Shown in pieces: positions 3,380-39,412 of a stretch of DNA of 41,018 nt. Under the pieces are notes generated by a model. It was not told the origin of the DNA and searched no databases. It saw only the letters and a program-made list of their open reading frames with translations. The stretch spans positions 1-41,018 of the forward strand of contig NZ_FOTI01000025.1 of assembly GCF_900114545.1 (NCBI RefSeq), written 5' to 3'. The position numbers were made by a program, and so were the translations under genes. The stretch's first letter is position 1. Each line of letters begins with the position of its first letter. The stretch comes from Halanaerobium salsuginis. GTDB taxonomy: Bacteria; Bacillota; Halanaerobiia; Halanaerobiales; Halanaerobiaceae.

Positions 3380-3396
3380 TATAAAAAACAATAAAT

Positions 3397-3553
3397 CTTA
3401 TCCAGAGTGGTGGAGGGACTGGCCCTTTGAAACCCGGCAACCAGCAGTTTAAAACTGCCCGGTGCCAATTCCAGCAGGTAAAACCTGATAGATAAGTCGG
3501 TTATAACTTTCTAACCCACTCCTGGATATTCAGGTAGTGGGATTTTTGTTTTT
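3397..3553 (+). ncRNA. SAM-I (S-box) riboswitch with terminator
   Basis: The P1 stem CTTATC (3397-3402) pairs with GATAAG (3491-3496). Between them are the S-box landmarks AGAGTGGTGGAGGGA, CTGGCCC, GAAACCCGGCAACC and the GGTGCCAATTCC segment. After P1 comes the expression platform: CCCACT-CCTG (3515-3524) pairs with CAGG-t-AGTGGG (3531-3541), followed by TTTTTGTTTTT. SAM binding should stabilise P1 and let the terminator form, switching metY-metA off when methionine is plentiful. The layout is that of the classic S-box class. Confidence 0.95.
3515..3553 (+). terminator. Riboswitch-controlled intrinsic terminator
   Basis: A ten-pair stem with one bulged T, a GATATT loop and a T-rich tail ending at 3553. 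It is the off state of the SAM riboswitch. From 3554 to the metY start there is only AT-rich untranslated leader with no further motif that I trust. Confidence 0.85.
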
Positions 3554-3658: not shown

Positions 3659-4984
<1,326 letters not shown>

Positions 4985-5941: not shown

Positions 5942-6952
5942 TTATATTTCTCTGACGGATTCTCGAGCAATTAAGTCTGTTGTAATAACAGACTTGGTTG
6001 CTTTTTTTTCTGGGTCAGCAATTCTGGCAAATAATTTCCGGGCAGCCTCTTGGCCCATGGCCTGCTTATCAATATCAATAGTAGATATTTTAGGAGTAGT
6101 AAAAGCTGTTATTTCTATATTATCAAAGCCAATTAGAGAAATATCCTCTGGAATCTTAATTCCATATTTTTTAAAATTCTGCATAAGTCCAATTGCTATC
6201 GCATCATTAGCAGCAAAGATTGCTGTTGGTAATTTGTCTAACTGCATAAATCTTTTACAGAGATTTTTAGTCATATTTTCTCCTAAATCATCTGCTATTA
6301 TCATATATTCGTTTTTGATAGCTAAATTATTTTCTAAGAGAGCTAACTTATAAGCTTGCTGTCGTTCACTAAAACTGGGATGACTATCTGGTCCACCCGC
6401 ATAACCGATCTGCTGATGGCCCATTTTAACTAAATATTTTACGGCCTGCAGAGCACCATTAAAATTATCGGATACAATAGAGTCCATAATTGGTGATTTT
6501 AAATAATTATCAACCAGAACAGTAGGAAATTTTAATTCTTCAATTTTACGAATCATTGCCTGATTTAAATCTGCTCCTGCTAAAATCAATCCATCTACTT
6601 TGTTTTGCTTAATAATCCTGGGAACTTCTTTACTCTGTAAATCTTTAAGACTTAAAGTAGAAAAGAGCAGATTATAATCATTTTTTTCAGCCTCAATTTC
6701 TACGCCTGCAATTACCCTAACATAAAAAGGATTATTAAATACAGGGATATGTCTTCTGCTGATTACAAAAGCTAAATTATATGTTTTTAAATCATTTTTA
6801 GTATACTGAGAAAAATAACCTAACTCCTTAGCTACATTAATTATTTTCTGTCTGGTAAAGTTGGAAACTCCTTTTTTCTCATTTAATGCTTTCGAAACTG
6901 TTGAAACAGAAACATCTGCTTTATGAGCAATATCTTTAATTGTTACTTTCAT
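5942..6952 (-). CDS. LacI-family transcriptional regulator
   Basis: DNA-binding repressor. The 336-residue length, the N-terminal helix-turn-helix (residues 3-24, DVSVSTVSKALN) and the following periplasmic-binding-protein-like effector domain (VDGLILAG, FAANDAIAIGLMQ, LIGFDN) are standard. The start ATG at 6952 has AAAGGTG upstream. It is divergent from the alpha-galactosidase, so a galactoside or mannan-derived sugar is the likely effector and this gene and the sugar operons its likely targets; this is inference from position. The last codons encode the metA terminator hairpin on the other strand. The effector and operator cannot be read from sequence alone. Confidence 0.93.
   Translation of the reverse strand: MKVTIKDIAHKADVSVSTVSKALNEKKGVSNFTRQKIINVAKELGYFSQYTKNDLKTYNLAFVISRRHIPVFNNPFYVRVIAGVEIEAEKNDYNLLFSTLSLKDLQSKEVPRIIKQNKVDGLILAGADLNQAMIRKIEELKFPTVLVDNYLKSPIMDSIVSDNFNGALQAVKYLVKMGHQQIGYAGGPDSHPSFSERQQAYKLALLENNLAIKNEYMIIADDLGENMTKNLCKRFMQLDKLPTAIFAANDAIAIGLMQNFKKYGIKIPEDISLIGFDNIEITAFTTPKISTIDIDKQAMGQEAARKLFARIADPEKKATKSVITTDLIARESVREI
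5967..6009 (+). terminator. Terminator of metY-metA inside the lacI coding region
   Basis: GCAATTAAGTCTGTT (5967-5981) pairs with AACAGACTTGGTTGC (5987-6001) over 15 positions, including two G-U pairs, across a GTAAT loop. Eight T (6002-6009) follow at once. It begins 26 bases after the metA stop and lies wholly within the last codons of the oppositely oriented lacI gene. Confidence 0.88.
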
Positions 6953-9635: not shown

Positions 9636-9664
9636 TTGAATTGTCTGTAAATTTAAGCTATAAT
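9636..9664 (+). promoter_or_regulatory. Downstream promoter of the Opp-type importer operon
   Basis: TTGAAT (9636-9641), 17-base spacer, TATAAT (9659-9664). It repeats the plan of the promoter 76 bases upstream, including GCTTGAATT at the -35 and ATTTAAGCT before the -10. The leader from here to the start codon at 9800 is about 130 bases. Confidence 0.65.
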
Positions 9665-9764
9665 TAGGTTAAGAAATCGTTTTAGTTGATTCAAAATTTT
9701 TCTTAGTTCGCTCCTGATTTTGTATAAGTTCATAAGCTCTTAAGTCAAAAGAGGAAGTGAAAAA

Positions 9765-9799: not shown

Positions 9800-11479
9800 A
9801 TGATTAACCATTGGAAAAAAGTTTTGATTTTAACCCTGGCTTTTCTTTTCTTAATTGGTGGAATGTCACTTGCCCAAGATTTACCTCGTGACAAAACACT
9901 AGTTGTTACAGGAGCTATGTGGGGCCCTCCATCTACCTGGAATATCTTAATTCCAAATCCTGTTCCTGGAACAAGTACCCTTGTTTATGAAACAATGTTT
10001 GCCTATAATCCTTTAACAAATGAATATACTCCCTGGTTAGCTAAAAGTGGAGAATGGACCAGTGACAAAGAGTATGTGCTTAAATTAAGAGAAGGAATTA
10101 ACTGGACAGATGGTGAACCTTTCACTGCTGAAGATGTTGCCTTTACTTATCAGCTGGCTAAAGATAATCAAATTCCTTATTCTCCAATCTGGAATTGGAT
10201 GGATTCTGTAGAAGCAACTGATGATTATACAGTTACTTTTAAGTTTAGCCAACCTCACTATGCAGAGTGGGATGATGAATTGTACCAAAGATATATAATT
10301 CCTGCTCATATCTGGAAAGATGTTCCTGGTGATCAGCTGCTGACTAAAACAATGAAAAATCCTGTTGGTACAGGTCCTTATACTTACATGCATGCTGGTC
10401 AGGATAGAATGGTCTGGGAAAGAAATGATGATTGGTGGGGTAATGAAGTCTTTGGAAAACCTGCTCCCCAATATATTGTTGATTTAGTAAACCAGAGTAA
10501 TAATGTAATTATGGGAATGTTGATGAAAGGAGAAGTTGATTTAAGTAATAACTTCTTACCTGGAATTCAGAAAATTAAGGATCAATTTGGTTTAAAAACA
10601 TGGTATGAAGATGAACCTTATATGTTATCCTGGAATACAGCTCATATGCCAATGAATGTACTCCGCAAACCAATGGATGATCCTCAGTTTAGAAGAGCTA
10701 TGGCCTTTATGATTAATAGCCAAACAATAGTTGATCGTGTTTATGGTGGGATGGTAAAACCTGCTAATCCAACTGGTTTATTTGGTGAAGGCTGGCAAGA
10801 ATATTTAGATCAGGATATAGTTGATGAATATGGTTTTGAATATAATCCTACTAAAGCCAAAGCTATCCTGGATAGTGCTGGTTATGTTGATAAAGATGGT
10901 GATGGTTGGCGTGATATGCCAAATGGTGATCCAATCAAACTGGAACTAATAGTTCCCAGTGGCTGGACAGACTGGATGGAATCAATTCGGATTATTGCCA
11001 GTAATGCTAAAGACATTGGGCTAAACATTGTTCCAACTTTCCCTGATAGTGCACTTTATGACAACAAGCGTTTCAATCGTGGTTTTGATATGTTAATTGC
11101 TAATATGCAGACTACTTTAAGTTCAACTCCTTTTGATTACTGGGATGGTGTTGCTAACGCAGATATTAAGGGAGATGCTAACAATAACGGTAACTGGGGT
11201 TCTTACGATAATCCTGAACTATTTGATCTAATTGATCAATTTAATATTACCAGGGATGAAGCTAAAAAACATGAAATAGCTTCTGATATTGAAAGAATTC
11301 TATTACAAGACATGCCTACAGTACCGATCTGGCATAACGGTCTCTGGGCACAGGCTACTACAAATCACTGGACTAACTGGCCTAGTGAAGATGATCCTTA
11401 TGGTATCCCTGTAACCTGGGCTAATGCTTATCAATTAGGTATGATCAAAACTCTAATTGGAATTAAACCTGTAAATTAA
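9800..11479 (+). CDS. Oligosaccharide ABC importer, solute-binding protein (SBP_bac_5 family)
   Basis: Family 5 extracellular binding protein, the DppA/OppA fold that in thermophiles and halophiles often binds beta-gluco- or manno-oligosaccharides. Residues 1-25 are a signal peptide (basic start, hydrophobic core, SLA before Q26). There is no lipobox cysteine, so the protein should be a free periplasmic one, unlike monoderm lipoproteins. The mature part has the family landmarks (YTYQLAKDN region near residue 114; GTGPY at 191-195). The 559-residue length fits. It heads the cluster with two permeases, two ATPases and a beta-glucosidase, so a sugar ligand, not a peptide, is the better inference. 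The start follows AAAAGGAGTG. Confidence 0.85.
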   Translation: MINHWKKVLILTLAFLFLIGGMSLAQDLPRDKTLVVTGAMWGPPSTWNILIPNPVPGTSTLVYETMFAYNPLTNEYTPWLAKSGEWTSDKEYVLKLREGINWTDGEPFTAEDVAFTYQLAKDNQIPYSPIWNWMDSVEATDDYTVTFKFSQPHYAEWDDELYQRYIIPAHIWKDVPGDQLLTKTMKNPVGTGPYTYMHAGQDRMVWERNDDWWGNEVFGKPAPQYIVDLVNQSNNVIMGMLMKGEVDLSNNFLPGIQKIKDQFGLKTWYEDEPYMLSWNTAHMPMNVLRKPMDDPQFRRAMAFMINSQTIVDRVYGGMVKPANPTGLFGEGWQEYLDQDIVDEYGFEYNPTKAKAILDSAGYVDKDGDGWRDMPNGDPIKLELIVPSGWTDWMESIRIIASNAKDIGLNIVPTFPDSALYDNKRFNRGFDMLIANMQTTLSSTPFDYWDGVANADIKGDANNNGNWGSYDNPELFDLIDQFNITRDEAKKHEIASDIERILLQDMPTVPIWHNGLWAQATTNHWTNWPSEDDPYGIPVTWANAYQLGMIKTLIGIKPVN

Positions 11480-11518
11480 ACATGTCCAGTAAAAAAGCAA
11501 GTTAATTATTTTAGCAAA

Positions 11519-11550
11519 AACAGGTCCGATATTTATTTATCGGGCCTGTT
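11519..11550 (+). repeat. Stem-loop between binding protein and permease genes
   Basis: AACAGGTCCGATA (11519-11531) pairs with TATCGGGCCTGTT (11538-11550), 13 pairs with one G-U and a six-base loop. No T tract follows. Such hairpins after a binding-protein gene usually protect that part of the mRNA and give excess binding protein over permease. Confidence 0.65.
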
Positions 11551-11572
11551 ATTTAGAAAGGAGTAGTTTTAA

Positions 11573-12562
11573 ATGGGTAAGTATCTCAGAAAGAAACTTA
11601 TTGTTTACCTTATTACATTTGTGCTAGCTGTTACGATAAACTTTATTATTCCCAGGTTAATGCCTGGTGATCCCATTCAATCACTTTTATCACGGTTTTC
11701 AGGTATGGAAGGTGGCCGTGAAATTTTAGAAAATCAGCTAACTCTGTTATTTAACCTCAATCAGCCACTCTGGCAGCAATATCTTAATTTCTGGAAATCG
11801 GTTTTCACGCTTGATTTTGGTATTTCAATTATACAATTTCCAACCCCAGTTTTAGATATTATTAAAAGAGCTATTGTGTATGATTTATCCGTTTTATTAC
11901 CTGCAATTATATTAAGCTGGATAGTTGGTAATAAGCTTGGAGCTTATTCTGGAACTGATAAAAAAATGGATAATGCTACCATGCCTTTTTTCTATTTTTT
12001 AGCTTCTTCTCCTTATTTCTGGATGGCCGGGATTGTGGCCTTTTTCTTTGGAGTTAAATTGGGCTGGTTCCCAATTAGTGGGGCTTATGGTTCAACTTCA
12101 ACACCTGGTTTTAGGTTGAGTTTTATCCTTGATTTTATTCATCATTGGTTTTTGCCCTTCTTTACTATGTTTTTAGTTCAACTTGGAGGTTGGGCAATTG
12201 GAATGAGAAATATGATCATTTATGAACGCAGTTCTAATTATTCTAAATACATGAGTTCATTGGGAGCTTCGGATGGTTTAATTAGACAATATGGATTTCG
12301 CAATGGAGTTTTACCTCAAGTAACAGGTCTTGCTCTAAGAATTGGACGTATTGTAGGGGGAGCCATTACAGTTCAGGTTGTTTTTAATTATCCTGGTCTG
12401 GGCCGGATGATGCTTGATGCTGTACAAAATCAGGACTATTTTTTATTACAGGGAATTTTCTTGACAATAGTAACTATGGTTCTGGTGGCGAATTTTATTG
12501 TTGATATAATTTATATGTTTATTGATCCCCGGGTAAGACTGTCATTTACTGAGGAGGTGTAG
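11573..12562 (+). CDS. Oligosaccharide ABC importer permease, DppB type
   Basis: Integral membrane subunit of the family 5 importer. The 329-residue protein has an N-terminal membrane segment (about 9-28), an external loop typical of DppB/OppB with the LMPGDPIQ segment near residue 29, then five further hydrophobic helices. The cytoplasmic ATPase-contact loop is around residues 221-246 (YSKYMSSLGASDG...). It starts after AAAGGAGTAG and is followed within three bases by the second permease, so they are co-translated. It pairs with the next gene to form the channel. Confidence 0.9.
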   Translation: MGKYLRKKLIVYLITFVLAVTINFIIPRLMPGDPIQSLLSRFSGMEGGREILENQLTLLFNLNQPLWQQYLNFWKSVFTLDFGISIIQFPTPVLDIIKRAIVYDLSVLLPAIILSWIVGNKLGAYSGTDKKMDNATMPFFYFLASSPYFWMAGIVAFFFGVKLGWFPISGAYGSTSTPGFRLSFILDFIHHWFLPFFTMFLVQLGGWAIGMRNMIIYERSSNYSKYMSSLGASDGLIRQYGFRNGVLPQVTGLALRIGRIVGGAITVQVVFNYPGLGRMMLDAVQNQDYFLLQGIFLTIVTMVLVANFIVDIIYMFIDPRVRLSFTEEV

Positions 12563-12565
12563 TTT

Positions 12566-13429
12566 GTGTTAACTGAATTCTGGAAGAAACATGAAAATTT
12601 ATATTATGCTTTAACAAATAAAAAAGTTATTTTTGGTTTAACCATAGTAATTTTTGTTTTTCTATTAGCAGTTTTTGGACCAATGTTAACTCCTTATGAA
12701 TATGGTGATTATGCAGGAGAAGGCTATATGCCTCCGTCTAGTCAGCATTTTTTTGGAACAACAATTGACGGTAAAGATGTTTTTACACGAACTGTTTATG
12801 GTTTGCGTTCAACTTTATTGGTAGGAGTAATAGCTGGTACAATAGCTACTCTGGTTGGTTGTGCTGTTGGTTTTTTAGCTGGTTATTATGGAGGAACTCT
12901 TTTTGATGAACTGTTAATGATGATGACTAATATTTTTGTTGTAATTCCTCAGTTAGCCTTATTAATAGTTATTGCAGCTTTTCTGGAGGTAAGAGGGGTA
13001 GTCGTGATGGCGGTGATTGTTTCGATAACTGCCTGGCCCTGGACAGCAAGAGCTGTTCGTTCGCAGACACTTTCTTTAAAAAATCAGGAATATGTATCAC
13101 TTTCAAAGATTTCTTCCCTCAATGTGGGCAGGATTTTAAGAGAAGATATTGCATCTAATATGTTTTCATATGTTTTTATGGTTTTTATCCAGCAGTTTAA
13201 TGGAACAATGCTGGCCACTGTCCAGCTTGAATTTTTAGGACTTGGACCGACAAAGGGAATTTCACTTGGTCTAGTTATGCAAAATGCTGTTAACTGGAAC
13301 GGTATCCAGCTTGGCATGTGGTGGTGGGCCATAATTCCTGGTTTAATTCTGGCAGTTTTAATTACTGCACTTTATTTTATAAACACTGGACTTGATGCAG
13401 CCTTTAATCCAAGGTTAAGGGAGATGTAA
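12566..13429 (+). CDS. Oligosaccharide ABC importer permease, DppC type
   Basis: Second channel subunit, 287 residues. The N-terminal membrane helix (about 20-40) is followed by the DppC-type segment HFFGTTIDGKDVFTR (about residues 62-76), then further helices and a contact loop near residues 172-185 (QEYVSLSKISSL). The start is a GTG at 12566 placed after GAGGAGGTG; no in-frame ATG fits better. Two bases separate its stop from the first ATPase gene. Length and motif order are normal. Confidence 0.9.
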   Translation: MLTEFWKKHENLYYALTNKKVIFGLTIVIFVFLLAVFGPMLTPYEYGDYAGEGYMPPSSQHFFGTTIDGKDVFTRTVYGLRSTLLVGVIAGTIATLVGCAVGFLAGYYGGTLFDELLMMMTNIFVVIPQLALLIVIAAFLEVRGVVVMAVIVSITAWPWTARAVRSQTLSLKNQEYVSLSKISSLNVGRILREDIASNMFSYVFMVFIQQFNGTMLATVQLEFLGLGPTKGISLGLVMQNAVNWNGIQLGMWWWAIIPGLILAVLITALYFINTGLDAAFNPRLREM

Positions 13430-13431
13430 CT

Positions 13432-14424
13432 ATGAGTGAAAATATTTTAGAAGTGAAAAATTTACGTGCTTATTATAATATACTAAAAGGTCAGGTTAAA
13501 GCAGTAGATGATATTACCTTTAATCTAAAAAAGGGAGAAATACTTGGTCTAGCAGGTGAATCTGGTTGTGGTAAGAGTACTTTAGCTAGTAGTTTTATTT
13601 CCAGAAAAAAACCTTTAGAATATGTTTCAGGTGAAGTTGATCTAGTTGGTCATGAAATTATGAAAATGGATGAAGCAGAATTTAAAAAATTACGTCTTAA
13701 AACTATTTCTATCATACCTCAGTATGCTCTTGATGCTTTTAGCCCAACTAAAAAGATACGTACTTTTATTAAAGACTTGGCTCATCAGCATGGGATTAAA
13801 ACTGATCGAGCTTTTATGGAAAAAGTAGAAGAAAGACTTGATTTAGTTAATCTTGATAAATCAGTTTTAAATCGTTATTCAATTGAATTATCAGGTGGTA
13901 TGAAACAGCGTGTAGTAATGGTTATTTCAACGATCTTAGATCCTGATTTTATTATTGCTGATGAGATAACATCAGCTCTTGATGTTAGTTCACAGCGTTT
14001 TGTAGCGACAATGCTGGCTAATTTGAGAGATCTGGAAATTATTAAATCTGCTATTTTTATTACCCATGATCTTTCTATCTTATATCAAATAGCAGATAGA
14101 ATTATGATTATGTATGCCGGTAATTTTGCAGAGATAGCACCAACTGATGAGATTGTAGCCAGGCCGCGTCATCCTTATACAAGAGCCTTAATTAATTCTC
14201 TGCCCAAGGTAGGAATTCAATATCATGATAAACGGCTTTCTGGAATAGAAGGAACACCACCTCACTTACTTAATATAGGTGATGGCTGTCGTTTTAGAGA
14301 TCGCTGTCCTTATGCAATCGAAAAGTGTGAAGAAACTCCAATTAGAGAAAAAGTTGCTGATAATCATTATGTCTCCTGCTGGAGATGGCAAGAATTAGGA
14401 AGTGATCTCAATGTCGAAGAATAA
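13432..14424 (+). CDS. Oligosaccharide ABC importer ATPase, DppD type
   Basis: Cytoplasmic ATPase that powers the importer. Walker A is GESGCGKST at residues 42-50, the signature LSGGM at 153-157, and Walker B IIADE with catalytic E178. The C-terminal cysteine-containing segment CRFRDRCPYAIEKC is the oligopeptide/dipeptide family extension. The 330-residue length is standard. It overlaps the start of the next ATPase gene, which makes the expected heterodimer. Confidence 0.92.
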   Translation: MSENILEVKNLRAYYNILKGQVKAVDDITFNLKKGEILGLAGESGCGKSTLASSFISRKKPLEYVSGEVDLVGHEIMKMDEAEFKKLRLKTISIIPQYALDAFSPTKKIRTFIKDLAHQHGIKTDRAFMEKVEERLDLVNLDKSVLNRYSIELSGGMKQRVVMVISTILDPDFIIADEITSALDVSSQRFVATMLANLRDLEIIKSAIFITHDLSILYQIADRIMIMYAGNFAEIAPTDEIVARPRHPYTRALINSLPKVGIQYHDKRLSGIEGTPPHLLNIGDGCRFRDRCPYAIEKCEETPIREKVADNHYVSCWRWQELGSDLNVEE

Positions 14425-15340
14425 TAAAAATGAAGTAGTAATGTCAGTTAAAAATTTAACTAAAATTTTTAAAAGCGGAATCTTTAATCCAGAATATACT
14501 ACAGCTGTTAAAGATGTTTCTTTTGATATTGAAAAAGGAAAAATTATTTCTTTGATCGGTGAAAGTGGTAGTGGTAAGACTACAGTTGGTAAACTTATTT
14601 TAAAGTTAATTAATCCTTCTTCTGGTCAGATTATTTATAAAGGTCAGGATATAGCAGAAATTACTGATAAAAAAGATACTCAAAAATATTATCGCCGAGT
14701 ACAGGGGATTTTTCAGGATCCTTTTGCTACTTTTAATCCTCTTTATCGGGTGGATCGAGTATTTGATATGATTTTTGATTCTTATGAACTGGGATTTAGC
14801 GATAAAGATGAAGCAATTAGAAAGGTATTGCACGATGTTAATTTAAATCCTGATCGAACTTTAGGCAAATTTCCCCATCAACTTAGTGGAGGCCAGTTAC
14901 AGAGGTTATTAATTGCCCGGGCCCTGCTGATGGATGTTGATATTTTAATTGCTGATGAACTAATTAGTATGCTGGATGCTTCAACTAGAATTGGAGTTTT
15001 AAATTTATTAGTTGAATCATGTAAGAAAAATGGTATGGCTGTTATTTTTATTACTCATGATTTAAATTTAGGTTATTATATTAGTGATCAATCTTTAATC
15101 ATGTATAAAGGTCGTCTTGTTGAAAGAGGAGCAACTAAAAAAATCTACGAAAATTCAACTCACCCATATACCAAAATGCTCTTTGAAGCTGTACCTGAAA
15201 TTGGTGATCGCTGGGATCCTGAAGAAGAGTTTTTACCTGAACAAGTTGTAGGTGAAGTAAAAGACTTTTATCAAAATAATCAGGGGCGTGGTTTTGTAGA
15301 AGTAGAAAAGGGTCACAGTGTTTTATTTAGTGACGAATAA
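14411..15340 (+). CDS. Oligosaccharide ABC importer ATPase, DppF type
   Basis: Partner ATPase of the importer. From ATG 14411 (309 residues) Walker A is GESGSGKTT at 50-58, the signature LSGGQ at 158-162, and Walker B ILIADE ends at E183. ATG 14411 is preferred because AGGAAGTG precedes it at good spacing; a GTG nine bases upstream (14402) would lie in that site. The gene overlaps dppD by 14 bases. The usual DppF C-terminal cysteine motif is absent and the tail is short, which is common in this branch. Confidence 0.9.
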   Translation: MSKNNKNEVVMSVKNLTKIFKSGIFNPEYTTAVKDVSFDIEKGKIISLIGESGSGKTTVGKLILKLINPSSGQIIYKGQDIAEITDKKDTQKYYRRVQGIFQDPFATFNPLYRVDRVFDMIFDSYELGFSDKDEAIRKVLHDVNLNPDRTLGKFPHQLSGGQLQRLLIARALLMDVDILIADELISMLDASTRIGVLNLLVESCKKNGMAVIFITHDLNLGYYISDQSLIMYKGRLVERGATKKIYENSTHPYTKMLFEAVPEIGDRWDPEEEFLPEQVVGEVKDFYQNNQGRGFVEVEKGHSVLFSDE

Positions 15341-15361
15341 ATATTAGGGAGGTTTTTTGGC

Positions 15362-16711
15362 ATGGCAAATTTAATTTTTCCCTCTGATTTTGAATGGGGT
15401 GCCGCTACAGCTGCTTATCAAATTGAAGGTGCAGCAGCAGAAGATGGCAAAGGAAAATCTATCTGGGATACATTTACTCATCAGAAGGGAAATATTCTAA
15501 ACAATGACACAGGTGATATTGCTTGTGATCATTATCATCGTTATCAAGAAGATATAGCTTTAATGAAAGAAATTGGTCTGGATACATATCGTTTTTCTAT
15601 TTCCTGGCCCAGAGTTTTACCAGCTGGCAAAGGTAAAGTTAATCAAAAAGGAATTGACTTTTATAAACGGCTGGTTAATCAGCTCTTAGAGGCTGGCATT
15701 AAACCAGCTGCAACTCTATATCACTGGGATTTACCTGAGCAGTTACAGCTTAAAGGTGGCTGGGAAAATCGAGATACTATTTACTATTTTCAAGAATATG
15801 CAGAATTAATGTATAGTGAATTAGGAGATTTAGTTCCCCGCTGGATTACTCACAATGAACCATTTGTAGTTTCAATGGTTGGAAATTTATTTGGGGAGCA
15901 TGCACCTGGTTATCAGGATTATAATAAAGCTTTACAGGTAGCCCATAATTTGCTTGTTTCACATGGATTAGCTGTTGACAGTTTTAGAGAAAGTGGTATT
16001 AAAGGAGAAATTGGGATTACACTTAATCTTAACCATGTTTATGCTAAAACTGACAGTAAAGAAGATCAACAGGCTAAAGATTATTGTGATGCTTTTAATA
16101 ACCGCTGGTTCTTAGATCCTGTTTTTAAAGCTAAATATCCCACAAAATTATTAGCTTTATATCAGGATAAGTTTGGTGGCTTTGAAATAGAAACAGGTGA
16201 TATGGAAATTATCAGTCGTGAAATTGACTTTCTAGGAATAAATTATTATTCCCGGGCTGTGGTAGAATATGCTGAAGATGAACTTTTAAAGCATAAAACC
16301 ATTAAACCTGAACAAGCAATATATACAGCTATGAACTGGGAAGTTTATCCTGATGGACTGCGTGATTTACTAATTAGATTGAATAAAGAATATACTGATA
16401 AAGAAATTTTCATTACCGAAAATGGTGCTGCTTTTGCTGATCAGTTAGCAGCAGATGGTCAGGTTCATGATCAGCCCCGGGTAGATTATTTAAGAGAACA
16501 TTTTAAGGCTGCTTATCAAGCAATTGAAGCTGGAGTTCCTCTAGCTGGTTATTATGTCTGGTCATTACTTGATAATTTTGAATGGGCATTTGGTTATAGC
16601 AAACGTTTTGGAATAATTCATGTTGATTATCAAAATCAGCAACAGAGAACACTTAAAGATAGTGCTAAAATGTTTAAACAGGTCATTGCAGATAATGGCT
16701 TAACAGATTGA
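15362..16711 (+). CDS. Beta-glucosidase, GH1
   Basis: Cytoplasmic retaining glycosidase that releases glucose (or related beta-linked sugars) from imported oligosaccharides. All GH1 marks are present: the N-terminal FEWGAATAAYQIEGA, acid/base E166 in THNEP, and nucleophile E353 in ITENGAA. The 449-residue length is typical. It starts 21 bases after the ATPase gene behind GGGAGG and is the last gene of the operon, followed by a hairpin at 16743. Some GH1 enzymes are beta-mannosidases or 6-phospho-glycosidases; import here is by ABC rather than PTS, so a non-phosphorylated substrate is expected. Confidence 0.92.
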   Translation: MANLIFPSDFEWGAATAAYQIEGAAAEDGKGKSIWDTFTHQKGNILNNDTGDIACDHYHRYQEDIALMKEIGLDTYRFSISWPRVLPAGKGKVNQKGIDFYKRLVNQLLEAGIKPAATLYHWDLPEQLQLKGGWENRDTIYYFQEYAELMYSELGDLVPRWITHNEPFVVSMVGNLFGEHAPGYQDYNKALQVAHNLLVSHGLAVDSFRESGIKGEIGITLNLNHVYAKTDSKEDQQAKDYCDAFNNRWFLDPVFKAKYPTKLLALYQDKFGGFEIETGDMEIISREIDFLGINYYSRAVVEYAEDELLKHKTIKPEQAIYTAMNWEVYPDGLRDLLIRLNKEYTDKEIFITENGAAFADQLAADGQVHDQPRVDYLREHFKAAYQAIEAGVPLAGYYVWSLLDNFEWAFGYSKRFGIIHVDYQNQQQRTLKDSAKMFKQVIADNGLTD

Positions 16712-16742
16712 CTTACTAAATAATTAGCAATTTATTTAGTTT

Positions 16743-16772
16743 AATAAAGCTAACTAAGAGTTAGCTTTATTT
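16743..16772 (+). terminator. Terminator after the beta-glucosidase
   Basis: AATAAAGCTAACT (16743-16755) and AGTTAGCTTTATT (16759-16771) form a perfect 13-pair stem with an AAG loop. The T run is short, so efficiency is uncertain. Confidence 0.65.
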
Positions 16773-16775
16773 GAT

Positions 16776-16855
16776 AAGCTTAAAGCCGTTAATTAATATT
16801 TGTTAAATCTAATTTAATAAATTAGGTATTAATTATAGATTAAGGCTTTAAGCTT
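16776..16855 (+). ncRNA. Nested three-helix structure upstream of the chemoreceptor
   Basis: AAGCTTAAAGCC (16776-16787) pairs with GGCTTTAAGCTT (16844-16855), perfect over 12. Inside, TTAATTAATA (16789-16798) pairs with TATTAATTA (16827-16835), and CTAATTT (16809-16815) with AAATTAG (16819-16825). The helices stack in one 80-base rod with internal loops, ending 32 bases before the start codon. It could be a regulatory leader or a small mobile repeat; no known riboswitch class is recognised. Confidence 0.45.
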
Positions 16856-16887
16856 TCTTAATATCAGAACTTGCAGGAGGAATATAA

Positions 16888-18978
16888 ATGGCAAGCCCCA
16901 GAAAAAATTTATCATTTTTTTATTCACTAAAAGGTAAGATTACAGCAATTATAGTTTTAATTTTCTTAATAGTTCTGGCTTTGATTAGTTATTTAACTTT
17001 TAACTCTGCTGCTAAAATAGTAAAAAGCAAAATCAATGAAAACATAAATTTGGTTGCTGCTTCTTATAAAAATAATGTTAGTTCTCTGCTTGGAATTCTG
17101 GATCGTCAATTGGGATCAGTTAAAAGAGATAAAACTTTAGCCAGCTATCTAGATCTAATGGATGGTCTGTATCCCGGACCGGCAGCAGCTGAATCAGCCA
17201 GAAAAGATTTTTTGAATAGTATTGATGCTTTTTTGGGTATGCAGTATGCAACTGCAGGTATCCTGGAAAAAACAACTCAGAATTTGGCTGGAATTGATTT
17301 TGCCTATCTCAGTTTGCCAGATGGAACAGTAATTGCTGATTCCAGAATTACCTCAGCTGAATCATTAGCTCAAAAAGATTCTTATCTAAAACAAAAATTA
17401 TCTCCTGAGCTATATAAAAATATAAAATTTGGTTTTATACAGCAGGCAGCTAACCAGTCTTATTTGCTTTATAATTCTCCTCTTTATGCTGAAGATGGTA
17501 AGACAGTACGTGCCTATCTTGTTTTAGCTTTAAATCCTCAAATTCTTTATACAGTTTTAGCTGATTTAGATGTTGATACAGCTGGTAGTTATAAATTAAT
17601 TAATGCCAGAGGAGAAATTGTTAAAGCAGCTGATAAAAATTTATTTGGCCAGTCTCTATCAAATACCTGGCTTGTTAATACCAGAGTTGATAGTGGAGAG
17701 CTTAAAAAAACTGAATTAGCTGAACACTATTTATTAAAAGAAAATATTAGTGATAATCTTGCTTTAGCAGTTGATATACCGATTAAAGAAATGTTAGCAC
17801 CTGTTAATAAGCTTGCCCAAAAAATTATCACGGCAGCTTTAATTTCACTTTTTTTAGTAATTTTAATTATAATATTTTTTATTAATTGGCAGTTAAAGCC
17901 TCTCGCTGCTTTTGTTAGTTCTTTTCAAAATATGAAAAATGGAGATTTGCGAGAAAAGGTTAAGATAGATCAGAAATTGCTTGCTCGCAAAGATGAAATT
18001 GGTATTATGGCTAGTTATTTTAATGAAATGTTAACTGGAATTAAAACTCTTGTGAAAACAATTGAACAGCAGGCTCAGGAATTAAATATGGCTGCAGAAA
18101 AAATGAATAACAGCAGTTATAATCTAGGGCAGGAAGTAAACCAAGTTGGAATTGAAGTAGAAAATTTATCAGCTGGTTCGGAAGAACAGCTGGCCCAGAT
18201 TGAAGTCAGTAATCTTAATGTTCAGGATTTAAATAATGAGATTAAACAAGTTGATCAAAATGCAGGCCAAATTTCAGAACATGCTGATCAAGTATTAACC
18301 AGTATAGCTCAGGGTGGTCAGTCAGTTACAAACTCAATTAGTAATATTGAAAGTTTAAGTGCAGAAACAGCTAGTATTGCAAACCTGGTAGAGAATCTCG
18401 GCCAAATGTCAGCTGAAATTGGTGATATTGTAGTTTTAATTAACAATATATCACAGCAGACTAATTTACTTGCTTTAAATGCAGCAATTGAAGCAGCCAG
18501 AGCTGGTGAAGCTGGGCGAGGGTTTTCAGTAGTTGCTGATGAAATACGTTCTTTAGCTGAAGAATCTGCAGCAGCAACTGAAAATATTGCCAAGTTAATC
18601 ACTAAAATTCAGACTGGGGTTACAGAAACAGTTACTGAAATGGAAAAAAATAAAGAGTTTATGAATACAACTGTAAATGGCATCAAAAAGACTGATAAAA
18701 TCTTTGCTGAAATCAATAAAATTACTAAAGAATTAACAGCTTCAATTAATAATATTGTGAGTCGAATTACCTCTATGAGAGCAGAAAGTGATGATCTTGA
18801 ACATTCAATTGGTGATATTGCCAAAGTTACAGCAGATTTTGCAGGAAGTTCAGAACATTTAGCAGCTGCCAGTCAAGAGCAAAGCGCAGCAACTCATGAT
18901 ATAGTTTCTACAGCTGATAGCTTACAGTCTATGTCAGCTAAATTGATTGCTAATATCAATGATTTTAAGGTTGAATAA
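16888..18978 (+). CDS. Methyl-accepting chemotaxis protein
   Basis: Membrane chemoreceptor signalling to CheA/CheW. TM1 is about residues 18-38, and an exported sensor region of the double Cache kind spans about 40-305. TM2 is about 310-331, then a HAMP domain to about 385. The cytoplasmic coiled-coil has the signalling tip at about 519-560 ([20 protein letters not shown]). The 696-residue length fits. It lies 59 bases before the beta-mannosidase with no terminator between, so it is probably co-transcribed with the mannoside enzymes and senses a mannan-derived sugar or its binding protein. The ligand is not readable from the sequence. Confidence 0.92.
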
Positions 18979-19037
18979 GTTTAAATCTAATTATGAGAAT
19001 GATTTATTATTAAATTTATATTTGAGGTGATTAAGAA

Positions 19038-21521
19038 ATGAAAAAAATATCTTTGAATGGCAGCTGGCAGCTTAAGCAGCAGGAGAAAGGAATTGAAGTT
19101 TCTGCTCAGGTACCAGGTTGTGTACATACTGATTTAATTGCGGCCAAAAAAATAGATGATCCTTTTTACAGAAATAATGAAGAAAAGCTAATGTGGATTG
19201 GGGAAAGTGATTGGGAATATCAGCGAAAATTTGAATTAACAGCAGATTTTCTAGAAGCAGATAAAGTACTATTAAACTGTAAAGGTCTTGATACTTTAGC
19301 TACCATTTTTATAAATGGAAATAAAATTGCCAGAACAAATAATATGTATCGCTGCTGGGAATTTGAAGTTAAGGATTACTTAAAAGCAGGACAAAATGAG
19401 CTGAAAATCTATTTTGCTTCTCCGCTGCCCTATTTAGCCGAGAAAGACCAAGAATTTTTTCTGCCTGCCTGGAGTGTAGGAGACCACCGCTTACACAGTG
19501 GTAGTTGGCTGCGCAAACAGCCCAGTAACTTTGGTTGGGATTGGGGACCAATGTTAGTAACAATGGGAATCTGGCAGGATATAGAATTAATTGCACTTAA
19601 TCAGGCTAGAATAGAAGAAGTAGTAACTAATCAAGAACATCTAGCAGATGGTCAGATTGAGGTTACAGTTGAGCTGGTAGTCGAAAAATTAACTAAAACA
19701 GCTATTACAGGTCAATTAGAATTTTCTCTAGCTGAACAGCAGGTTTATCAACAAGATTTTAAATTAAGTGATAATGTGATTGAATTTAAATTTAAAGTAG
19801 CTAAACCAGAACTATGGTGGCCAAATGGAATGGGGAAACAGCCACTCTATGATTTGAAAGTTACTATTTTTGATAAAAATGGATCTAATCTAGATAATAT
19901 CCAGCAAAAAATTGGTTTAAGAAAATTAGAGTTAATTAGAGAAGATGATCAATGGGGTCAATCCTTTAAATTTGCAGCTAATGGCAAAGAATTTTTTGCT
20001 AAGGGAGCTAATTGGATACCTGCTGATGCATTTGTTAGCAGAGTTACTCCGGCAGATTATCGTAAACTTTTAGAGTCAGCTGCAGCTGCTAATATGAATA
20101 TGATTCGAGTCTGGGGTGGTGGACTTTACGAAAAAGATGTATTTTATGATATTTGTGATGAACTTGGTTTAACAGTCTGGCAGGATTTTATTTTTGCCTG
20201 TGGAACTTATCCTGGTTTTGATGATGATTTTATGGAAAATGTTAAAATCGAAGCAATTGAAAATGTTAAACGAATACGTCATCATGCTTCACTTGCTCTC
20301 TGGTGTGGAAATAACGAAATAGAACAGGGAATAGCAGGCGAAGAATGGGATAAAGAAAAAATTACAATGCCCTGGTCTGATTATAAAAAAATATTTGATG
20401 AATTACTACCGGAAGTTGTAGCTAAATATGATCCTGATACAGATTATTGGCCCAGCAGTCCCCATAGTCCGCTTGGAGATCGGAATGATTTTTACAATCC
20501 TAAATGGGGAGATGTCCATGTCTGGGATGTCTGGCATGGTAAAAAACCTTTTGAGTGGTATCGCAATTGTGAACATCGTTTTAATAGTGAATTTGGTTTC
20601 CAATCTTTTCCGGAGCCTCAGACAGTTGCCACTTATACAGCACCCGAAGATCGTAATATAACTTCTTATGTAATGGAACATCATCAGCGCAGTGGAATTG
20701 GTAACACAACCATTATGCAGTATATGCTCGATTGGTTTAGATTGCCTACTGATTTTGAAGATGTACTCTGGGCCAGTCAGATTCTCCAGGGTTTGGGTAT
20801 AAAATATGCTGTTGAGCACTGGCGGCGAGGAATGCCACGTGGTATGGGAACCCTTTACTGGCAGCTCAATGATAACTGGCCAGTTGCCAGTTGGTCTTCA
20901 CTTGATTATTATGGTCGCTGGAAAGCTCTGCATTACATGGCACGTAAATTTTATGCACCGCTGCTAATTAGTGGAGTTGAAAATAATTCTGATTCTACAG
21001 TAGAAATTCATCTAACCAGTGATAAACTAAGTGATGTAACTGGAGAAGTAAGCTGGCAGTTAAGAACTGTTGCTGGTAAACTGATTGTTGAAGATTCTTT
21101 TGCAGCTGCAATTAAAGCTCAGAGTAATCAGCTAGTTAAAAAAATAGATCTAAGCAAATATGTTGCAGACTATGGAATTAGAAATTTAATGCTCTTTTTA
21201 GAACTAAAAGTTGCTGGGAAATCTGTATCAGATAATTTTGTTAGTTTTGCTAAACCGAAACATATGGAATTATTAGAACCTGATTTTAAAACTGAGATAA
21301 CTAAAATTACTACTGCTAAATATAAAATTAAAATAACTGCTGCTAAAACGGCGCTCTGGACCTGGCTTGAGTTAAAAAATCAATCTGCAAATTATAGTGA
21401 TAATTTTATTCATCTTTATCCAGGTAAAACTGCAGAAATTATACTTGAGCCTGAGTGTGATTTAACGGCTGCTGAATTGCAGAGTGAATTGAAAGTCCGT
21501 TCATTAATTGATACTTATTAA
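19038..21521 (+). CDS. Beta-mannosidase, GH2
   Basis: Exo-acting retaining enzyme that removes mannose from the non-reducing end of beta-manno-oligosaccharides. The 827-residue protein has the GH2 order: N-terminal jelly roll with WQDIELI, immunoglobulin-like domain, then the barrel. Acid/base E427 is in WCGNNEIEQG and nucleophile E518 in NSEFGFQSF. The barrel entry GANWIPADAF and WQLNDNWPVASW near the end are beta-mannosidase hallmarks that separate it from beta-galactosidases. No signal peptide, so it acts in the cytoplasm. It starts after TTGAGGTGATT and leads into the epimerase gene 45 bases on. Confidence 0.93.
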   Translation: MKKISLNGSWQLKQQEKGIEVSAQVPGCVHTDLIAAKKIDDPFYRNNEEKLMWIGESDWEYQRKFELTADFLEADKVLLNCKGLDTLATIFINGNKIARTNNMYRCWEFEVKDYLKAGQNELKIYFASPLPYLAEKDQEFFLPAWSVGDHRLHSGSWLRKQPSNFGWDWGPMLVTMGIWQDIELIALNQARIEEVVTNQEHLADGQIEVTVELVVEKLTKTAITGQLEFSLAEQQVYQQDFKLSDNVIEFKFKVAKPELWWPNGMGKQPLYDLKVTIFDKNGSNLDNIQQKIGLRKLELIREDDQWGQSFKFAANGKEFFAKGANWIPADAFVSRVTPADYRKLLESAAAANMNMIRVWGGGLYEKDVFYDICDELGLTVWQDFIFACGTYPGFDDDFMENVKIEAIENVKRIRHHASLALWCGNNEIEQGIAGEEWDKEKITMPWSDYKKIFDELLPEVVAKYDPDTDYWPSSPHSPLGDRNDFYNPKWGDVHVWDVWHGKKPFEWYRNCEHRFNSEFGFQSFPEPQTVATYTAPEDRNITSYVMEHHQRSGIGNTTIMQYMLDWFRLPTDFEDVLWASQILQGLGIKYAVEHWRRGMPRGMGTLYWQLNDNWPVASWSSLDYYGRWKALHYMARKFYAPLLISGVENNSDSTVEIHLTSDKLSDVTGEVSWQLRTVAGKLIVEDSFAAAIKAQSNQLVKKIDLSKYVADYGIRNLMLFLELKVAGKSVSDNFVSFAKPKHMELLEPDFKTEITKITTAKYKIKITAAKTALWTWLELKNQSANYSDNFIHLYPGKTAEIILEPECDLTAAELQSELKVRSLIDTY

Positions 21522-21566
21522 AAATTTTTTTCATTAAAAATGTAAAATGATTTGAGGTAGATAATT

Positions 21567-22775
21567 ATGAATCAAAAAGTAAAATCACAGCTGCTTGAAC
21601 TTTCAGCAGCTGTTGCTCTCGAAAAAGATAGGCTATTAGATTTCTGGCTAAAAAATTCGCCTGATAAAAAATCTGGTGGATTTATTGGCGAATTAACTAT
21701 TAATAACCAGCCAGTTTACGAAGCTGATAAAGCACTAATTCTTAACAGCCGCATCCTCTGGAGTTTTGCTAATGCTTATCGTTTAGATCAAAAAGAAGAA
21801 TACCTTGTAATGGCAGATCGAGCAGCCAATTATCTGCTCGATAACTTTGAAGATAAAGAATATGGTGGATTTTACTGGCTGCTGGACTATCAAGGCCAAC
21901 CACAAAAAACAAAAAAACAAATTTATGGTCAGGCTTTTTGTATTTATGCTTTCAGTGAATATTACAGAGCAACCGAAAAAGATTGGGCCCTTAAAAAAGC
22001 AGTTGAATTATTTGGTCTGGTAGAAAATTATAGTTATGATACTGAAGATAAAGGCTATTTTGAAGCTTTTGCTAGAGATTGGTCACCATTGGCTAATATG
22101 AGTTTAAGTCCTCGCGATCTAAATGTTGCAAAGTCTATGAATACCCATCTTCACATTCTGGAAGCTTATACTAACCTTTATAGAATCTGGCCTGATCCTG
22201 ATCTGGAGCTTAAATTAAAAGAATTGATTGAAGTCACTCTTAATAATATAGTTGACCAAACAGGTTATAATTTTAATCTCTTTTTTGATCAAGATTGGAC
22301 AATCAGGGATAATATTGTTTCTTATGGGCATGATATTGAAGGCAGTTGGTTAATCTATGAAGCAGCAGAAATTTTAGGAGATCAAGTAAGTTTAAAACTG
22401 ACAGAAGAGTATGCTTTAAAGATGGCAAATCAGGTTTTTAAAAATGGCAGAGCTGCAGATGGCAGTCTCTACTATGAATTAAAAAATGGTCAGCTTGACC
22501 AAGAAAAACATTGGTGGCCTCAGGCAGAAGCTGTAATAGGTTTTCTCAATGCATATCAGCTTAGTCAGCAGGAAAAATTTTTATCAGCAGCATTTGCTAG
22601 CTGGCAATTTATTTCTAATAATTTAGTTGATCAAAAACAGGGAGGCTGGTTCTGGTCAGTTGAACAAGCAGGTACAATTTCTAATCAGTCTAAAATTAAT
22701 CCCTGGAAATCTCCTTATCATAACAGCAGAGCCTGTTATGAAGTAATTCAACGTGTAGAGAAGATACTTAATTAG
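21567..22775 (+). CDS. Cellobiose/mannobiose 2-epimerase (AGE family)
   Basis: Converts the reducing-end residue between glucose and mannose; in mannan pathways it turns beta-1,4-mannobiose into mannosyl-glucose. The 402-residue alpha/alpha-barrel protein has the three histidines known in cellobiose 2-epimerases: H194 (MNTHLH), H255 ([10 protein letters not shown]) and H385 (SPYHNSRA). [11 protein letters not shown] at 316-326 is a further family block. It lies 10 bases before a GH130 phosphorylase whose substrate it would make, which is the arrangement of the known mannobiose pathway. N-acylglucosamine 2-epimerase, the generic family name, is less likely here. Confidence 0.9.
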
Positions 22776-22785
22776 AGGTGATAAA

Positions 22786-23985
22786 ATGGATTTATTAAAA
22801 AAACCTACTGAAGCAGAATTCCAGATTAGACTGCAAAAACTAGAAAAAAAATATCAGCAGTTAATTAATCGTAAAAATGAACGTCTGGAACCAGGAAATG
22901 GTATTTTTTATCGTTATAAATATCCAGTTTTAACAGCAGAACATACTCCACTTATCTGGCGTTATGATTTTGATTATCAAAGCAACCCATATTTAATGGA
23001 AAGACAGGGAATTAATGCTGTTTTTAATCCTGGAGCAATTAAATTAAATGGTAATTATTATCTGATTGCCAGAACTGAGGGTAATGATCGTAAGTCATTT
23101 TTCTCAATTGCAGAAAGTAAAAATGGAATAGATAAATTCAAATTCTGGGATTATCCAGTGGAAATACCAGAAACTGAAAGACCTGATATTAATATTTATG
23201 ATATGAGACTGGTTAAACATCAAGACGGCTGGATTTATGGAGTTTTCTGTACTGAAAGGAAAGATCCTACAGCAGGCCCATCTGATACAAGCTCAGCGGA
23301 AGCTCAAGCTGGCATAGTAAGAACTAAGGATTTAAAAGAATGGGAGAGGCTGCCCGATTTGGTCTCACCTTCAGCACAGCAGAGAAATGTAGTTTTGCAT
23401 CCTGAATTTATAGATGGAAAATATGCTTTTTATACTAGACCTCAAGATGGATTTATTAATACTGGTTCTGGAGGAGGAATCGGCTGGGGGCTGGCTGCTA
23501 ATATTGAGAATCCAGTAATTGAGTCTGAAAAAATTATTGACCAGCGTTTTTATCATACAATTAAAGAATTAAAAAATGGTCAGGGAGATGCTCCTTTAAA
23601 AACAGATTATGGTTGGCTTCATCTTGCTCATGGTGTCCGTAATACCGCAGCTGGACTGCGCTATGTGATTTATGCTTTTATGACAGATTTAGCAGATCCT
23701 ACCAAAGTAATTTATAATCCAGGCGGCTATCTAATTGCACCTCAAGGTCTGGAACGAGTTGGAGATGTTTCAAATGTAGTTTTTGTTAATGGAGTTATTC
23801 AGGAAGATAATGGGAGAGTTTTAATCTATTATGCATCTTCTGATAGCAGAATTCATGTTGCTGAATCTTCAATAGATAGGTTAGTTGATTATGTAAAAAA
23901 TACACCACCAGATAAATTACGGTCAGCAGCTTCTGTTCAAACAAGAATAAAACTAATTGACAAAAATATCTCTGCTGGCAAATGA
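22786..23985 (+). CDS. 4-O-beta-mannosyl-glucose phosphorylase, GH130 (subfamily 1 type)
   Basis: Inverting phosphorylase: mannosyl-glucose plus phosphate to mannose-1-phosphate plus glucose, in the cytoplasm. The 399-residue length and long N-terminal helix region (1-36) match the Bacteroides Mgp/RaMP1 type. The general acid is D139 in [27 protein letters not shown] (81-99) is the five-blade propeller entry and phosphate-side block. Its position directly after the epimerase is the strongest support for substrate. The product mannose-1-phosphate would need a phosphomannomutase, which is not in this window. Confidence 0.9.
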
Positions 23986-28793: not shown

Positions 28794-28809
28794 AAAACCA
28801 GTTAAAAAG

Positions 28810-28857
28810 ATCAATAAAACAGCTTATAAATTTGTTGTTTTATTGATTTTTATTTTT
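28810..28857 (+). terminator. Terminator after the second importer operon
   Basis: ATCAATAAAACA (28810-28821) pairs with TGTTTTATTGAT (28836-28847), 12 perfect pairs with a 14-base loop, followed by TTTTATTTTT. Confidence 0.85.
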
Positions 28858-28907
28858 AAAAATATGATAAGATAATCATATGCAGCTGCAAAGAGGAGGG
28901 CTATTCA

Positions 28908-39372: not shown

Positions 39373-39412
39373 AATAAAGCTAGTAATTCTGAATAGAATT
39401 ACTAGCTTTATT
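39373..39412 (+). terminator. Terminator after micropeptide gene 1
   Basis: AATAAAGCTAGTAATTCT (39373-39390) pairs perfectly over 18 bases with its complement at 39395-39412 around GAAT. The following T run is short, but the stem is very stable. It separates the micropeptide from the aldo/keto reductase. Confidence 0.75.

Follow-up and report, generated by a model that had tools for sequence, protein, structure and literature searches.

A conserved hairpin at the 3' end of a transporter–GH1 operon in the genus Halanaerobium

To which of its two neighbouring gene groups does a long intercistronic hairpin belong, and what may it do there? The question is raised by a locus of Halanaerobium salsuginis (assembly GCF_900114545.1, contig NZ_FOTI01000025.1), where a nested hairpin at 16776–16855 lies between an operon for a transporter and a glycosidase and a group of genes that begins with a chemoreceptor, the flanking genes being on the + strand. 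The sequence-only reading had placed it in the leader of a chemoreceptor-mannosidase operon. The whole stretch of DNA analysed, 41,018 nucleotides long, is called the window here, and the features around the hairpin are as follows.

9800–16711, + strand: upstream operon, coding for a family-5 solute-binding protein, two permeases, two ATPases and a GH1 glycosidase
16743–16771, + strand: separate terminator-like hairpin of 13 bp, immediately upstream of the 16776–16855 hairpin
16776–16787, + strand: 5' arm of the outer stem (AAGCTTAAAGCC), the first 11 bases of which, AAGCTTAAAGC, are the same in the relatives G003, G007 and G009
16788–16843, + strand: inner part of the hairpin with a bulged G, a 6-bp helix and an apical hairpin
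16844–16855, + strand: 3' arm of the outer stem (GGCTTTAAGCTT), followed by the moderately U-rich tail UCUUAAUAU
16888–23985, + strand: downstream genes for a chemoreceptor, a GH2 mannosidase, a protein of the GlcNAc-2-epimerase family and GH130 enzymes

Among the transporter genes, domain scans covered those of the binding protein, of a single permease and of a single ATPase, and the others are named from position and size. The chemoreceptor has MCP signalling and HAMP domains, and its match to dCache is weak and below the cut-off. Upstream of the transporter operon, the window contains a gene for a LacI-type regulator (5942–6952) and a promoter-like TTGAAT-17-TATAAT (within 9636–9685, upstream of 9800) that is followed by AAGAAATCGTTTTAG, an arrangement present in all five loci printed; we take AAGAAATCGTTTTAG before the binding-protein gene to be a putative LacI-type operator. 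Elsewhere in the window, a SAM riboswitch (RF00162, 91.4 bits) is found at 3395–3498, before the gene at 3704.

The hairpin itself is real and evolutionarily conserved. Its outer stem consists of 12 uninterrupted base pairs, 5 of which are G-C pairs, and encloses the bulged G (16788), the 6-bp helix and then the further apical helix, all of them collinear, so that the computed fold agrees with the nested architecture that had been described from the letters. With a minimum free energy of −26.7 kcal/mol versus a shuffle mean of −11.35 (sd 2.48; z −6.2), none of 200 shuffled sequences reached the same stability, and a repeated run gave a z of −5.9 with none of 300, which confirms the earlier impression of an order beyond chance. 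With an identity of 77% between the stretch and its reverse complement, the hairpin can be folded on both strands.

Strong folds are found in all seven members known from the genus, and the pairing for which the sequence-only reading had asked in relatives is kept. Every member folds better than its shuffled versions (z −4.3 to −6.9, with no more than 1 of 300 shuffles equally stable), with energies of −19.7 to −29.9 and an arm-to-arm length of 72–80 bases. The outer stem AAGCTTARAG/CTTTAAGCTT is common to the window and the relatives with the same gene order, and its ten outer pairs are almost invariant with a single change from A-U to G-U, which is sequence conservation and not covariation. 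Further inside, pairs have changed. RNAalifold of five relatives gave 27 pairs, 2 of them with both sides changed, and the two-sided changes among the relatives are at stem pairs 11 and 14, whereas a hand alignment of six distinct sequences including the window, which by its making leans towards structure, has two-sided changes in the stem (pairs 11, 13, 14 and 15) and in the apical helix (pairs 3 and 4), two apical pairs being changed on both sides in the window. Pairs 13 and 15 and apical pairs 3 and 4 are paired in all six sequences if a one-base shift from pair 13 onwards is made for the bulge of the window; pairs 11 and 14 are broken in G006 and apical pair 2 in G010, and pair 12 is unpaired in four of the six.

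In the six genomes that have the chemoreceptor, the identity of the hairpin exceeded the shuffled control in 15 of 15 genome pairs, whereas that of the stretch before it clearly did so in just 3 of them. The sequence that follows the hairpin shows conservation among G003, G007 and G009, and for these three versus the window it is above the control; the coding ends reach a similar level, and versus the window, the identity of the hairpin (0.62–0.69) is not above theirs. A covariance model built from five relatives recovers six relatives, five of which were its input, and did not find the hairpin in the genome of the window at E ≤ 1. The best score on the window was 14.3 bits at an unrelated place (28812), and with filters off, a search of 16740–16890 gave 13.1 bits for a part of the hairpin and 9.7 bits for the full model, the latter on the minus strand only. 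The membership of the window hence rests on the outer arms, on gene order and position, and on the hand alignment. Weak matches of the model were obtained in G015, G019, G023 and G031 (E 0.09–0.39), and the one in G019 (E 0.09), which is on another contig than the operon, is the only such match among the 11 genomes outside Halanaerobium that hold the upstream permease.

It is the distribution of the hairpin that decides to which genes it belongs. The outer stem with any inside of 34–64 bases occurs in 7 of 12 Halanaerobium genomes, at one place in each, and in 0 of 26 other genomes of the order (38 searched in all). The same seven genomes, and no others in the genus, have the permease that belongs to the upstream operon (at E ≤ 1e-120); G011, scored as having neither operon nor hairpin, is 75% complete, and G010, scored as having both, is 83% complete. 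In the whole order, 18 genomes have the permease, and the 11 outside Halanaerobium lack the outer-stem pattern. The gene order from GH1 to the chemoreceptor is common to G003, G007, G008, G009 and G010, with a long hairpin at the same place in all five, G008 and G010 being identical at the hairpin. In G006, the operon continues with a GH94-family gene and a small one with a weak FdtA match, behind which come the hairpin and an aldo/keto reductase gene, and there is no chemoreceptor of this kind in that genome at E ≤ 1e-130, whereas G005 has the chemoreceptor (55% identity) after another gene and lacks both the operon and the hairpin. The co-occurrence in the same seven genomes together with these two cases assigns the hairpin to the end of the upstream operon and not to a chemoreceptor leader: it marks the 3' end of this operon within one genus. 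Two further searches bear on that restriction. A loop-plus-arm pattern matched four contigs in a collection of 84,980 species, all from Halanaerobium, in a scan that is not exhaustive, as the G007 variant does not fit the pattern and G006 was not among the matches. In seven stretches from other genera with the operon, no like element was among the five strongest folds of each, which is a test of little power, as these places are taken up by folds of coding sequence, and the stretch of G019 ends before the end of the operon; four more operon holders were covered by the pattern and model searches.

These data go against the placement in a leader that the sequence-only reading had proposed. A regulatory leader of the chemoreceptor-mannosidase genes, i.e. 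an attenuator or an undescribed riboswitch, would suit the structured, conserved nature of the element and its distance of 32–38 nt from the chemoreceptor start in four of six genomes (the window and three relatives), but G006 keeps loop and stem with no chemoreceptor downstream, the chemoreceptor of G005 has no hairpin, the hairpin occurs in the genus only together with the upstream permease, and no Rfam family reaches its threshold; a leader function is thus improbable. A known riboswitch can be rejected, as no match at gathering score was obtained at the hairpin in the window or in four relative loci (G003, G007, G009 and G010, with only chance-like matches below threshold), which agrees with the absence of known riboswitch landmarks noted at the outset. 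All 12 sub-threshold Rfam matches at 16700–16900 are far below the gathering scores and are mostly eukaryotic miRNA and snoRNA models, besides two bacterial sRNA models and one CRISPR repeat model. At 16785, GCCGTTAA resembles a sigma-28 −10 box; a sigma-28 promoter for the chemoreceptor was rejected, since by eye there is no −35 box at the usual distance and GCCGTTAA is not in the relatives.

A long near-perfect inverted repeat with almost invariant arms could also be a mobile palindromic repeat or, on the DNA level, a protein-binding site of two inverted arms. The arm-to-arm length, however, varies from 72 to 80 bases, and CTTTAAGCTT, if at most one mismatch is allowed, occurs 6 times in the window including both arms, which is no excess over the 11.95 expected. 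Further copies, which the sequence-only reading had considered as a sign of mobility, did not turn up: searches of the own genome and of the order gave a single place per genome, which rules out a mobile repeat. Two own-genome matches were dismissed, one at C42:10028 being AT-rich and covering the inner part only with no outer stem, and one at C89:65120 lying within another binding-protein gene and differing from the loop motif at three positions. A LacI operator in the arms was likewise rejected, as the putative operator AAGAAATCGTTTTAG conserved upstream of the binding-protein gene is unlike them. Either version of a repeat or DNA site is therefore largely refuted and has a very low probability. 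A search for a phage or viral origin, covering 351 bases of one relative and one pattern, gave no match.

The explanation that we favour, and which is fairly probable, is that the hairpin acts as a leaky (internal) intrinsic terminator and/or as a 3' stabiliser of the mRNA at the end of the transporter-GH1 operon. It builds on the observations that the hairpin is structured, conserved and present once per genome, that it is linked to the upstream operon and that the chemoreceptor start codon is a short distance away, and is favoured because the hairpin looks like clostridial internal terminators and stem-loops of the SRPS kind provide a precedent. RNA polymerase that has set out from the solute-binding-protein promoter would partly stop at the hairpin, and messages ending there would be protected from 3' exonucleases, while a smaller share of transcripts may read through into the chemoreceptor-mannosidase genes, which would then be co-transcribed. 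The net effect would be a step down in expression between the transporter/GH1 genes and the chemoreceptor/mannosidase genes. The 32–38 nt are too little for an ordinary promoter plus a ribosome-binding site, and thus the chemoreceptor messages probably include at least part of the hairpin, and a separate downstream promoter is unlikely in the four genomes.

Some observations speak against termination. The tails are U-rich but broken, with UUUAUUGA and then further U in the relatives and UUUCUUAAUAU in the window, and the combination of a GC-rich stem and a run of at least five U, as in canonical intrinsic terminators, is not found here; a five-U run is absent from the tails of this hairpin and present after some other terminator-like hairpins of the window, the tail scores not being comparable between hairpins because the stem ends were set by hand. 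A strict terminator scan of 16600–17000 called none, and in G006 its sole match was on the minus strand. In the window there is also the second terminator-like hairpin directly upstream. A preceding terminator had been proposed at this place, and of that proposal the 13-bp hairpin at 16743–16771 stands, whereas the strict scan does not call it a terminator. The five relatives that share the gene order have nothing corresponding to it in their folds, and one may speculate that it shares or has taken over termination, which could explain why the loop of the window was free to change. Hairpins of similar style with AU-rich bases are found elsewhere in the window at 28805–28860 (CAATAAAACA..TGTTTTATTGATTTTT) and 39373–39412 (AATAAAGC..GCTTTATT).

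The hairpin could also be a full terminator of the upstream operon, the chemoreceptor genes being transcribed from their own promoter in or across it. A weak TTGATA-17-TAATAT match (9/12) at 16771–16799 overlaps the 5' arm, the distance to the chemoreceptor start is 100 nt in G008 and G010, and in G006 a promoter-like match (10/12) lies between the hairpin and the next gene. Such matches are, however, barely more frequent than in shuffled sequences in the window (4 versus 2.2, sd 1.5) and less frequent in G006 (1 versus 2.5), the promoter-like letters of the window are not common to the relatives, and the tail is low in U for a full terminator. Complete termination with a separate promoter is thus quite unlikely.

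What plain termination explains neither are the near-invariant outer pairs nor the loop that is kept in six relatives. There, the apical CUGGUUCCCCUAUACCAG is common to all six, with one base differing in G007 and in G008/G010, and is absent from the window, where an apical stem-loop CTAATTTAATAAATTAG (16809–16825) with no C in its loop occupies the place of the CTGGTTCCCCTATACCAG of the relatives. The loop is hence kept in six of the seven members (one loop base changed in G007) while the neighbouring inner sequence drifts. A small contrast is provided by a hairpin between the GH2 and epimerase genes of G003 and G009, the tip of which drifts. This further strong hairpin is at 15097–15230 of locus L078, in reverse orientation, and at 12757–12930 of L080; the corresponding gap of the window has 45 bases and a weak fold (−2.3 kcal/mol).

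Such a loop could be part of a structured 3'-UTR RNA, in which UUCCCCUAU pairs with G-rich ribosome-binding sites, e.g. that of the first gene of the operon in a feedback, or of a small RNA made from the operon end. Besides the conservation of the loop, it fits that all six genomes with the loop have AAAGGGGUG as the ribosome-binding site of the solute-binding-protein gene, where the loop-less window has AAGGAG, and that the energies predicted for the loop with the binding-protein site are −9.1 to −9.4 kcal/mol; for the chemoreceptor site, they are −7.3 to −8.0 kcal/mol in the five relatives that have the chemoreceptor. A precedent is RepG of Helicobacter pylori, which, according to excerpts of PMC8295292, binds a G-repeat in the leader of a chemoreceptor mRNA. 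However, GGGG at this site occurs outside the genus too, in six genomes with no loop, and is thus probably ancestral, and four others are without GGGG like the window; better matches to the loop were found at other starts in three of the six loop-bearing genomes (with only 7–15 starts scanned in each), the full complement TATAGGGGAA is not enriched (45 in 12 genomes versus 96 for a reversed-pattern control), and the joint loss of loop and site in the window rests on one lineage. A pairing 3'-UTR or small RNA is therefore rather doubtful. The same low likelihood applies to the wider idea of a genus-specific RNA with a CUGGUUCCCCUAUACCAG loop recognised by an RNA, such as the G-rich site of the first gene, or by a protein in an end-to-start feedback of the operon, the species of the window having lost loop and G-rich site.

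Most likely, the hairpin is an ordinary stem-loop that sets stoichiometry, i.e. control of a known kind. It merits a name in annotation, attributed to the end of the upstream operon. The locus has another conserved intercistronic hairpin at 11519–11550 between the binding-protein and permease genes (AACAGGTCCGATA..TATCGGGCCTGTT), the stem sequence of which is kept across genera, with 11 of 14 loci fitting one pattern and the remaining three having a variant stem. If the favoured explanation of a leaky terminator or stabiliser is true, the hairpin at 16776–16855 would be a second, lineage-specific stem-loop that sets protein ratios along one sugar-uptake locus, in this case between transporter and chemoreceptor. 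The novel part would be the sequence-conserved loop of the relatives, which could mark an end-to-start feedback within one mRNA. In the excerpts found of the open-licence literature on Halanaerobium terminators and riboswitches, apparently nothing deals with this hairpin, and on chemoreceptors with stem-loops only the RepG work was found.

RepG is an independent small RNA that acts in trans on the G-repeat and therein differs from the hairpin described here; going by the same excerpts, the likeness, which holds for the relatives only, is in the C-rich loop of a terminator-like hairpin. Internal terminators in the ABC-importer loci of cellulolytic clostridia (Wu et al. 2022, PMC9045158, in its excerpted parts) have a stem broken by an unpaired step and a 3' tract that is paired and low in U, average −28.4 kcal/mol in the case of Type IV, and were found with reporters to terminate leakily. 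The hairpin resembles Types III and IV in its intercistronic position in an ABC-importer locus, its similar energy and the same-strand genes that continue downstream, and it has the long stem, the unpaired step and the paired low-U 3' tract as well, the step being a bulged G in the window and a U·U mismatch in G003, G007 and G009, with no mismatch there in G010 and G008. Unlike those terminators, as far as the excerpts describe them, which come after the binding-protein gene, it follows the last gene of the operon, GH1, its termination is predicted, and its apical loop sequence is common to six relatives. The hairpin at 11519–11550 does lie directly downstream of the solute-binding-protein gene and is by this analogy probably an internal terminator of the clostridial kind. 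The SRPS mechanism, in excerpts of Xu et al. (2015, PMC4423207), involves stem-loops mostly lacking a U run at the 3' ends of highly expressed genes, which have higher transcript levels, and the hairpin at 16776–16855 agrees with this in that it is stable and lies where the upstream gene ends, in a locus for the use of polysaccharides.
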